Shown here: positions 9,604 through 27,065 of the stretch, piece by piece
Position numbering within the stretch: position 1 is the stretch's first letter
Layout: every line of letters starts with the position of its first letter
Assembly: GCA_945890715.1 (NCBI GenBank)
Contig: CAMDCX010000007.1
Span: 1 to 60,812 of the forward strand
Direction: 5' to 3'
DNA: 60,812 nt
Origin: PVC group bacterium
GTDB lineage: Bacteria; Verrucomicrobiota; Kiritimatiellia; CAIKKV01; CAITUY01
The notes under the pieces: model-generated
What the model saw: the letters and a program-made list of their open reading frames with translations, nothing else
Told to the model about the DNA's origin: nothing
The model's database searches: none
Made by a program: the position numbers and the translations under genes

Positions 9604-10890
9604 TTAATCGACACGTTTGAATTCCGTCAACGATTCGAAGTGGGCGGTTCGAGGGAAGAGGTCGAAAAGTTGTGAAGTGTGGATTGAATAGCCTCCCTCT
9701 TTCAGCCAGGCGGCGTCGCGAACCATGGTGTCGGGGGCGCAGGAGATATAGAGTAGACGACGCGGCGTGTGTTTGAGGATTTCCTGAACCAGTTTTCGAC
9801 CCAGTCCGCTTCGCGGCGGATCGACAATCAGAGTGGCTTGATTGGGATGATCGAGTTCAACATCCAGAATACCCTCATTCGCCGTGGCGGACTTCCAGTG
9901 GGTGTTCTTCAGGCCCAGCTTCCGGGCATTGTACTCCGCCGCCTGGATTCCCGGACCATCCAGATCAATCCCGAGAACCTTCGGAATTCCCAGCGTTGCC
10001 GCAGCCAGGGCAAACACGCCCACCCCGCAATAGAGATCAATCACGGTGTCGGGCAGGTCAGCCTTCAATCGTTCCATAACGGCGGTCACCAGGCGGTCGG
10101 CCATGGCCGGATTCATCTGGTAGAAACTGTTGCGTGGCACGGAAAGCGGCCCGATGACCGATGATTCCACGAGCCACACATCTTTTTCCGATGCCCGGTT
10201 CCGCCACCACTGGGCGCCATCCTGTTCCGTCCACCGGAAGGTGACGGTCATGCCGTCCCTCAAAGTTCGGAAAAACGAGGGGTCACCGCGTCGTTCTTTT
10301 AGGATTTCATTTAACGGAGCTGCGGCCAGAGGACAAGCGGGAACATCCAGGACGGTGGTGTTGTCGGCCATGAAATAGCCCAGTCGCATCTCCTTCCCGT
10401 CCGCCTGAGCATGAAGCGCCATCTTGTTCCGGTAGCCAAGCGGCGAGGGGGCTGCAACGGGCGGGAGGAGGCTGGGTGGACTGCGACCTCCGGGCGCAGG
10501 CAGGGCTTCATAGGCTCCTTCCGGATTCTGACGCCGCCCGGAGGTCGGCGCCCACCTTGCGAGAAGGGCACCGAGCTGGTTGTTCTTAATGCGGACTTCT
10601 TCCTCGTAGTCAGCATGTTGGTAACAGCAACCGGGGCAGCCTCCTTCGCTAAAGCTACGGAGGCCAAGGGAGGAGGCAAGGGGGCAGGTGGGTTTAACGC
10701 GGTGGGGGGAGGCGGTCAGGATTTCGAGAGGTTCGGCTTCCAGGAAATCGCCGCGATCCCGGGTGATCTTGACCCGGACAGTTTCGCCGGGAAGAACGCC
10801 GGGAACAAAGCAAACTTTCCCATCCAATCGCCCGATGCCGCGACCGCCGTAGGGAAGGTCGGTGATGGTAAGAGACGAGGCGGCGGTCAT
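9604..10890 (-). CDS. rlmD: RlmD/TrmA-family 23S rRNA (uracil-C5)-methyltransferase with two in-frame repeat-derived insertions
   Basis: TRAM-like N-terminus, Cys cluster CPLA...GGCPGC, DLYCGVGVFALAAA, VDPPRSGLG, LLYISCAPDT. Confidence 0.85.
   Translation of the reverse strand: MTAASSLTITDLPYGGRGIGRLDGKVCFVPGVLPGETVRVKITRDRGDFLEAEPLEILTASPHRVKPTCPLASSLGLRSFSEGGCPGCCYQHADYEEEVRIKNNQLGALLARWAPTSGRRQNPEGAYEALPAPGGRSPPSLLPPVAAPSPLGYRNKMALHAQADGKEMRLGYFMADNTTVLDVPACPLAAAPLNEILKERRGDPSFFRTLRDGMTVTFRWTEQDGAQWWRNRASEKDVWLVESSVIGPLSVPRNSFYQMNPAMADRLVTAVMERLKADLPDTVIDLYCGVGVFALAAATLGIPKVLGIDLDGPGIQAAEYNARKLGLKNTHWKSATANEGILDVELDHPNQATLIVDPPRSGLGRKLVQEILKHTPRRLLYISCAPDTMVRDAAWLKEGGYSIHTSQLFDLFPRTAHFESLTEFKRVD
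10474..10557. repeat. Palindromic element inside rlmD (arms GGGTGGACTGCGACCTCCGGGCGCA / ACGCCGCCCGGAGGTCGGCGCCCACC)
   Basis: Imperfect ~25-bp inverted repeat around a ~32-bp centre; encodes RWAPTSGRRQNPEGAYEALPAPGGRSPP in frame. Confidence 0.75.
10640..10674. repeat. Short palindromic repeat inside rlmD (CCTCCTTCGCTAAAGCTACGGAGG...)
   Basis: Imperfect palindrome; encodes SSLGLRSFSE between the predicted Fe-S cysteines. Confidence 0.75.
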
Positions 10891-12086
10891 GGTTCTTTGG
10901 GTTGTCGTTTTGTCCCGGCGTACAGCGTAAAGGCCAGGAGGCGACATTCGATGTTGGCATTGAAGAAGAGAATGCGGCGGGAACTGCGGAGGCCGACTTT
11001 CTTTCCGAGAACGAGGTTTCCGGTAAAGACATAGCCAGTGTAGCCGCCGCATTTCTGTTTGAAGAAATCGCCGATCCGGCGATACACGGGCTCGAGTTCA
11101 ATTTCATCACCCATGCGCTCGCCGTATTCCGGGTTGAACAGCACCACGCCGCCGCCTTCAGGCAATGGCGTATCAGCGAAATCGCAGCTGGTGAATTCGA
11201 TCAACTGTTCCACGCCTGCGGTGCGGGCGTTCTGCCGGGCGGCCTCAACGGCATCGGTACGGATATCCGAGGCGATGATTTTTCCGGTGAAGGGCCGCTT
11301 GGGAAGCACCCGGGCTTCCTGTCGGATTTTCTGCCAGGCCACGTCATCAAATCCCTTGAGGTGCATAAACCCGTAATTGCTACGGAGCAGGCCCGGGGGC
11401 CGCCCCTGTGCTAGTAGCGCGGCCTCGATGGCGAGTGTGCCGCTACCGCACATGGGGTTGATGAAGTTGCCTTCCCCGGTCCAGCCCGTGGCGCACACGA
11501 CGGCTGCAGCCAGGGTTTCGGCCATGGGGGCGGCCATGGGGATTTTGCGGTAGCCCCGTCGCGACAGGGCCTCGCCTGAAGTGTCAATGTAGAGTTTGGC
11601 TTCGCTCTGGTTCCAATACAGGAAGACAACCGTTCCGCTCCGCTCATTGCCGGAGTCCGGGCGCACGCCGGTTTTGGCGCGAATCCGATCCACGATGGCA
11701 TCCTTGGTTTTGACGTTGGCAAACCGGCTGTCCCGGATGGCCGGGGTATTGATAAACGAGGTGACGGTAAAGTAGCCGTTGTCGGGGATGATGTCTTCCC
11801 AAGGGAGAATTTGAATCCGGGCGTACAGGTCGTCCGGTTGGTGTGCGGTGAACCGGTCAAGTTCCAGCAGCACCCGGTTGCCGGTATGGAGCACCAGGTT
11901 GAGCCGCATGGCATCGGCGAGGGTGCCGCAGGTTTCCACGCCCGCTTCCAGTTCCGCCTGGATAGGGAATCCGAGCGCCGTGAGCTCCGCCTTTAGGTAA
12001 GGTGGAATGCCCTTTGCGCAGGCAATGAGGAGGGTGAAGACGTTAGACGTGAGAGGTGAGGCGTGAGGGGATTCATCATTCATCAT
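10887..12086 (-). CDS. THUMP-domain class I SAM-dependent RNA methyltransferase (RlmL N-half/YcbY-like)
   Basis: NPMCGSGTLAIEAALLA; FNPEYGERMG; THUMP-like N-terminus; ATGA overlap with rlmD. Confidence 0.85.
   Translation of the reverse strand: MMNDESPHASPLTSNVFTLLIACAKGIPPYLKAELTALGFPIQAELEAGVETCGTLADAMRLNLVLHTGNRVLLELDRFTAHQPDDLYARIQILPWEDIIPDNGYFTVTSFINTPAIRDSRFANVKTKDAIVDRIRAKTGVRPDSGNERSGTVVFLYWNQSEAKLYIDTSGEALSRRGYRKIPMAAPMAETLAAAVVCATGWTGEGNFINPMCGSGTLAIEAALLAQGRPPGLLRSNYGFMHLKGFDDVAWQKIRQEARVLPKRPFTGKIIASDIRTDAVEAARQNARTAGVEQLIEFTSCDFADTPLPEGGGVVLFNPEYGERMGDEIELEPVYRRIGDFFKQKCGGYTGYVFTGNLVLGKKVGLRSSRRILFFNANIECRLLAFTLYAGTKRQPKEP
12036..12069. repeat. Degenerate tandem repeat of the GACGTTAGACGTGAGAGGTGAGGCGTGAGG type at the RlmL-like 5' end
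   Basis: Repeated GTGAG/GACGT words read directly; followed by ATTCATCATTCATCATTCAT. Confidence 0.6.
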
Positions 12087-13826: not shown

Positions 13827-13974
13827 GGGAAAAGTTGACAGGGTGAACGGTGTGTTTCATCATCGGCTTCTCATGAATCCTACGCGAGAATTAGAAATGC
13901 GTTCGGCGGCCGTAACGCTGTCGGACATGGAGATCTTTGTTTTCCCCGAGCTGATGATGGCGCTCCTGCTGGCC
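13827..13974 (+). repeat. Flanking direct repeat, left copy: 46-bp leader plus first 34 codons of the gene at 18114
   Basis: 148 bp aligned to 18068..18215 at offset 4241 with 11 mismatches. Confidence 0.95.
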
Positions 13975-18067: not shown

Positions 18068-18215
18068 GGGAAAAGTTGACAGGGTGAACGGTGTGTTTCA
18101 TCATCGGCTTCTCATGAATCCTACGCGAGAATTGGAAATGCGTTCGGCGGCGGTAACGCTGTCGGATATGGAAATCTTTGTTTTCCCGGAACTGATGATG
18201 GCCTTGTTACTGGCC
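18068..18215 (+). repeat. Flanking direct repeat, right copy (attached to the intact gene)
   Basis: See 13827..13974. Confidence 0.95.
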
Positions 18216-20721: not shown

Positions 20722-20774
20722 GGAAAAATAAATGCAAACCACGGAGGGACGGAGGTTGAGAGAGAGAAGAAAAT

Positions 20775-20826
20775 GTTTCGCGATTTTCAAGGAGGGCGAG
20801 TACTCCCTCCTTGAAAATCGCGAAAC
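20775..20826. repeat. 52-bp perfect hairpin GTTTCGCGATTTTCAAGGAGGG-CGAGTACT-CCCTCCTTGAAAATCGCGAAAC
   Basis: 22-bp perfect arms. Confidence 0.95.
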
Positions 20827-20881
20827 ACCACTTTCCGAGAAAGAGGGAGTATTGGCTTCTCCTGATTTCCTCCAGGAAGGC

Positions 20882-26894: not shown

Positions 26895-27065
26895 GGGGTC
26901 ACTAACGAGGGGGTAATGGCTTTCTCAAGGCTCCGTGGGAGGGGCGCTGTGCGCCGCGACCTTCTCCCGAGAGCCTGTAGAGTCCCTGTCGCGGCGCACA
27001 GCGCCCCTCCCACAAAGAACAAAGTTTGGAGCCGAAGACGGTTCTACCCCCTCGTTAGTAACCCC
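26895..27065. repeat. MITE-like element, 21-bp TIRs (GGGGTCACTAACGAGGGGGTA / TACCCCCTCGTTAGTAACCCC)
   Basis: TIRs differ at one position; flanked by GAGATCAGG on both sides. Confidence 0.8.
26936..27012. repeat. Internal perfect 25-bp inverted repeat TGGGAGGGGCGCTGTGCGCCGCGAC...GTCGCGGCGCACAGCGCCCCTCCCA
   Basis: Read directly; 27-bp loop. Confidence 0.95.

Follow-up and report, generated by a model that had tools for sequence, protein, structure and literature searches.

A REP-like hairpin repeat shared by many bacterial phyla lies in frame in the iron–sulfur cysteine loop of RlmD

In the 60,812-nucleotide stretch of a PVC group bacterium genome analyzed here (the window), the gene for the 23S rRNA methyltransferase RlmD carries two different palindromic elements within its coding sequence (Table 1). 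The first, P1, lies in frame between the first two cysteine ligands of the predicted Fe–S cluster. A preliminary description of this DNA had proposed an in-frame palindromic insertion in the Fe–S motif, and the proposal is borne out both by the existence of a dispersed, structurally conserved family of such hairpins and by the empty-site-like gene of a relative. The second, P2, is a palindrome that the earlier description had overlooked. The account that we consider probable is that P1 is a single REP-like hairpin that entered rlmD once through an HUH-mediated event and was kept, that P2 is a later insertion linked to a RAYT, and that the resulting RlmD is likely functional.

Table 1. Positions in the window of the rlmD gene, its adjacent cluster ligands and the two inserted elements.
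Feature	Position	Strand	Basis
RlmD (23S rRNA m5U1939 methyltransferase) ORF, 428 aa from ATG at 10890	9604..10890	(-)	TIGR00479 and PDB 1uwv
P1: CTTG tag plus 26-nt imperfect hairpin, in frame, LGLRSFSEGG between Cys69 and Cys85	10639..10668	(-)	Family consensus, relatives, 1uwv, fold
CPGC ligands (Cys85-x2-Cys88), directly after P1	10627..10638	(-)	Alignments with relatives and 1uwv
P2: 82-bp dimer of two inverted REPs (GGTGG tag plus hairpin), between cluster loop and central domain	10475..10556	(-)	Imperfect inverted repeat, relatives

The rlmD reading frame scores 230.8 bits (E=2.6e-68) against the curated RlmD model TIGR00479, above the cut-off of 183.55, and matches Escherichia coli RumA (PDB 1uwv) with E=1e-41. 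The frame remains open upstream as far as an ATG at 11052. Adjoining rlmD is a methyltransferase-like ORF (10887–12086) that overlaps its start by a few bases, and because of this overlap the two are probably co-transcribed. In E. coli RumA, Cys81, Cys87 and Cys90 are held in an extended loop and the fourth cysteine is in the central domain (PMC5614603). The window protein belongs to the same family and keeps these ligands as C69, C85, C88 and C186, as well as the catalytic cysteine of the YISCAP motif, just as its relatives and 1uwv do. It differs from the E. coli enzyme in having 10 more residues in the Cys1–Cys2 stretch; the sequence reads C-PLASSLGLRSFSEGG-C-PG-C, with a spacing of x15 instead of the x5 of a C-x5-C-x2-C motif, and these extra residues coincide with a gap of exactly 10 in the 1uwv alignment. 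The RumA cluster is thought to stabilize the fold rather than to act in catalysis, given that RlmCD has no cluster (PMC5614603). With all four ligands of the cluster and the catalytic cysteine preserved, the window RlmD is, judging from its sequence, most likely still functional. The earlier suggestion that the insert is tolerated agrees with these retained residues and with the in-frame copies present in many other enzymes. Structure prediction on three sequences gave a mean pLDDT of 37 and was discarded. Two RlmD relatives (L026 and L028, from G051 and G040) have lost the first three cluster cysteines and are probably natural variants without the cluster.

On the coding strand, P1 consists of CTTG followed by G-CCTCCGTAGCTTTAGCGAAGGAGG-C, which amounts to exactly 10 codons (CTT to GGC). 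The hairpin includes a GTA/GAA internal loop and a TTTA loop, and in the DNA fold (z = −2.9) the CTTG tag is unpaired. The 24-mer CCTCCTTCGCTAAAGCTACGGAGG at its core occupies positions 10640–10663, and shuffles of the window expect 0 occurrences. The inserted segment had originally been drawn as the ten residues SSLGLRSFSE; the length stands, but the edges are two codons off. The boundaries in Table 1 follow from two observations: copies of the family agree in a short tag and a 26-nt hairpin but not in their flanks, and excision at these points yields CPLASSCPGC, matching the CPLASHCPGC of a same-genus genome, G001. There is no obvious target duplication at the ends of P1 in rlmD, and an Rfam search of the region gave no match. 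A genome-wide count, proposed earlier as a check, finds a single copy in the 2.1-Mb, 89.5%-complete genome, counting up to two mismatches, and that copy is the one inside the rlmD ORF. Two other identities for P1 were rejected: an intrinsic terminator, since no T-run follows the hairpin, and a fixed motif of the DNA-uptake type, since the stem covaries.

A comparison with relatives had also been proposed. P1 is present and identical at the identical rlmD site in G003 and G005, which are independent MAGs (proteins about 89% identical), and is absent from G001 (RlmD 78%), where the uninterrupted loop is found. We would date the insertion to the ancestor of the window species, G003 and G005, and loss in G001 appears less likely. 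The P1 flanks of these three genomes differ by about 8–27%, and P1 itself is unchanged. Two further members of the genus, G002 and G004, have other, longer Cys1–Cys2 loops, which leaves the ancestral length of the loop uncertain. The G004 loop is built of a CTCACGT-type heptamer repeat, with an exact match at G004:C32:19612; this repeat occurs 33 times in G004, 26 in G002 and 45 in G003, against 0–1 for the reversed control. Taken together with P1, this heptamer loop indicates that the rlmD loop took in unrelated kinds of repeat DNA at least twice. A repeat of the same heptamer type also occurs at window positions 12042–12066. All four cluster ligands are kept in 27 of 29 RlmD relatives, whose Cys1–Cys2 loops span 5 to 26 residues of unrelated sequence, and exact C-x5-C-x2-C spacing is therefore not defining for the family. 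Removal of 30 bp does restore that spacing, as had been stated, but the spacing is not a fixed requirement. The wording that P1 is inserted in a metal-cluster motif is correct; from the alignments, the motif spacing appears to be no strict constraint in these bacteria.

The exact 24-mer of P1 occurs in at least 118 DNA stretches from about a dozen phyla in a search of data from 84,980 species, in which simple base counting would predict about 0.002 occurrences by chance. According to record titles, the matches listed include Patescibacteria, Bacteroidota, Omnitrophota, Planctomycetota, Verrucomicrobia, Kiritimatiellae, Lentisphaerae, Sumerlaeota, Elusimicrobia, Acidobacteriota, Alphaproteobacteria, Deltaproteobacteria and others. 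These records are mostly MAGs, and single bins may be contaminated, but contamination is unlikely to lie behind the breadth of phyla. One record with several P1 copies (R33, Poritiphilus flavus) bears the title of a strain instead of a MAG. Alignment of the at least 118 stretches defines the unit as the 24-mer enclosed by a closing base pair and preceded by a YYYR tag; outside this unit the flanks are unrelated. Among the matches listed, the tag is CTTG in 23/124, TTTA in 19/124 and CCTG in 18/124, and the closing pair (n=124) is TA in 51, CG in 49, TG in 14, CA in 5, AT and GC in 2 each and TC in 1. The inner stem pairs covary (n=57; 38 against 18.8 in shuffles, maximum 28, and 48 against 25.7, maximum 35). 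Some copies form short tandem arrays. Copy number is low wherever we looked, at 0 to 10 per genome; in a survey of the class with a 20-mer of P1, 29 of 97 genomes had 1–10 copies, and the control gave 2 matches in all. Searches of open-access text for the P1 sequence or its peptides returned three chance matches and nothing on a P1 repeat.

Long open frames contain 35 of the 122 distinct copies among the matches listed, or 29% as compared with 64% of random positions, a depletion that is expected of REPs. Most copies elsewhere are extragenic and, among the matches listed, have no common gene context. We assigned intragenic copies by the longest open frame and counted a gene only if it was supported by Pfam with P1 well inside it; L167 and L230, in which P1 is near an uncertain start, were excluded. 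By this measure, 13 family-supported genes among the matches listed carry P1 in frame, counting rlmD. The Pfam-confirmed hosts are FtsK, TsaD, Rho, CarB, LigA, TatD, UvrD, ThrRS, a class-II aaRS, the tail of FtsZ, a cytochrome c and a kinase. When aligned to PDB entries, TsaD and LigA show a gap at P1 and CarB a longer gap that begins at P1; the alignments of TatD and ThrRS are less clean around the element, and the best alignment of LysRS stops ahead of it. Stops occur in two of the six P1 reading frames and in none of the other four. Among the supported genes in the matches listed, the frame encoding SFAKATEG is used in 10, that encoding SVALAKE in 2 and that encoding LRSFSEGG in 1, which is rlmD. 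In this small sample, the frame bias suggests selection on the peptide. One protein-kinase-domain protein from a deltaproteobacterial MAG (L141:630-2762) carries P1 three times in frame within its Pro/Glu-rich tail.

The second element in rlmD, P2, is missing from the rlmD genes of the nearest relatives, G003 and G005. It adds a net 24 codons, and the window protein has about 24 more residues ahead of the central domain than these relatives. For a unit of 82 bp, this gain presumably requires that some 10 bp of host DNA was lost or that the ends were altered. As DNA, P2 folds with z = −4.2 relative to shuffles. Exact core sites of P2 are dispersed through the host genome (17 + 16, or 33 half-sites) and number 72 in G001, 25 in G005, 11 in G003 and 0 in G002, with 0–1 for the control. 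Four long copies share the 82-bp length, and the other copies in the host genome are mostly shorter dimers. P2 thus has the two inverted, dispersed REPs of a BIME, with GGTGG in place of a GTAG tag. It is also associated with a transposase gene: a RAYT on G001:C176 and its 72%-identical homologue on G003:C56 both carry P2 copies on either side. These RAYT-type Y1 transposases are 165–171 aa long, and their best NCBIfam match is REP_Tyr_transpos (E=5e-20 and 3e-17 for G001 and G003; scores of 71.8 and 62.9, just under the cut-off of 80). No close homologue was found in the incomplete host genome. By its layout, as read from sequence, the combination of P2 and RAYT in G001 and G003 is a REPtron.

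P1 is likewise a REP-like hairpin, and the earlier label "RPE-like" was right in kind, although P1 is not one of the named Rickettsia families, as far as tested. The Rickettsia palindromic elements RPE-4, RPE-6 and RPE-1 resemble P1 in being short palindromes inserted without a frame shift into conserved-protein genes, some of them for RNA-modifying enzymes (PMC3733652). RPE-4 and RPE-6, however, are CGTC-tagged REPs, whereas P1 has a YYYR tag (most commonly CTTG, TTTA or CCTG), another sequence and hosts other than Rickettsia; RPE-1 is longer than P1. Two REP super-families have been described, GTAG and CGTC, and intragenic GTAG REPs are known, most of them in Opitutus terrae and also in Verrucomicrobia (PMC3733652). 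With the GTAG REPs and BIMEs that occur with a RAYT as REPtrons, P1 shares the design of a short hairpin ending on one side in a conserved tag that stays unpaired, and P2 shares the arrangement of two inverted REPs adjoining a RAYT. Neither P1 nor P2 has a GTAG tag at its ends. P1 further differs from these elements in having no adjoining RAYT, in its very low copy number (1 in its own genome and 0–10 in relatives, where REPs reach high numbers) and in being identical over 24 nt across phyla.

We propose that P1 would have entered rlmD once, in the common ancestor of the window species, G003 and G005, in the form of a single-stranded DNA hairpin that an HUH (Y1) transposase, working in trans, had cut and joined. 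It would have been retained because its length of 30 nt is divisible by three, because four of the six frames are free of stops and because the Cys1–Cys2 loop is tolerant of added residues. P2 would represent a second and later insertion in the same gene, for which the likely mobilizer is the RAYT flanked by P2 copies in G001 and G003. The RAYT route is well supported for P2 by this anatomy, and the transposase route for P1 is suggested by analogy only. Published REPs consist of a hairpin, bulged in one group, with a conserved motif ahead of it (PMC8266576), and CGTC REPs, including RPE-4 and RPE-6, have no dedicated transposase (PMC3733652).

The alternative that survives best, though we regard it as unlikely, is that P1 has no dedicated transposase and spreads through recombination or template switching between hairpins alone, as might happen in replication or natural transformation, reaching new phyla on transferred carrier DNA. 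In its favor, none of 60 transposase loci has P1 nearby: for 30 Y1 transposase genes from P1-bearing genomes of the class, the 1.5 kb around each gene contains no P1 hairpin, and 0/30 RAYT genes in 16 other P1-bearing genomes have one near them. The at least 118 P1 loci include two clear Y1-like ORFs and one marginal match. The tandem arrays and very low copy number also fit with recombination. On the other hand, the flanks of P1 are mutually unrelated outside the 30-nt unit, which argues for insertion of the unit itself, and a tag with a bulged hairpin is the recognized substrate design of TnpA-REP (PMC8266576).

It is less probable still that the hairpin is held at rlmD by a role of the nucleic acid, as an mRNA hairpin or a protein-binding site, rather than by mere tolerance of the peptide. 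The three species show 0/30 nucleotide differences in P1, compared with a mean of 5.85 in other 30-nt windows of rlmD, only 1 of 284 of which is equally conserved. This conservation could equally come from a recent exchange among the species, from selection acting on the ligand region or from hairpin constraint; the lack of an Rfam match and the mostly extragenic copies elsewhere, with no shared gene context, speak against such a role. A third possibility, that this is no more than a variable loop whose ordinary coding DNA resembles the repeat by accident, is very improbable. The range of lengths and the many unrelated sequences of this loop do agree with variability, and we keep that part within the insertion account; the strict chance-match form is refuted by the 24/24 match to a palindrome of at least 118 stretches, with tag and closing pair as well, where shuffles expect none. 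Finally, an assembly or binning artefact, a concern raised earlier and made conceivable by the fact that all the genomes are MAGs, is barely credible with the identical element at a site that agrees to the base among three genomes with 11–16% difference between their genes in the region, two of the three coming from differently named samples.

This kind of event is already known, since intragenic REPs and RPEs that encode parts of proteins, that occur two per gene and that lie in RNA-modifying enzymes have been described (PMC3733652). P1 in RlmD is thus a clear instance of mobile DNA that has become protein, though one with precedents. What is new is the P1 family, its spread, its site in a ligand loop with an empty relative and the presence of two different elements in one gene. 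The rlmD gene provides a same-genus comparison of a mobile hairpin turned into protein in a metal-ligand loop, and it holds a further example of such an event. The family itself is a hairpin repeat common to many uncultured phyla that fits neither of the REP super-families described and occurs in frame in essential enzymes; with it, the passage of REP-like DNA between phyla and the origin of new protein segments can be put to the test. More tentatively, P1 could be the first example of an undescribed, YYYR-tagged class of frame-neutral 30-nt hairpins that circulates among phyla and repeatedly adds a 10-residue peptide (containing SFAKATEG, SVALAKE or LRSFSEGG, depending on the frame) to core-enzyme loops, where selection on the peptide would filter the frame and the nucleotides would then be held constant, at least in rlmD; we put this broader reading forward as a possibility that we would not yet favor.

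Other repeats are present in the window. A 148-nt direct repeat at 13827–13974 and 18068–18215 is 93% identical between its two copies, which are 4.2 kb apart, and a 26-nt perfect inverted repeat at 26935–27013 and a 23-nt one at 20774–20827 each have a short spacer.
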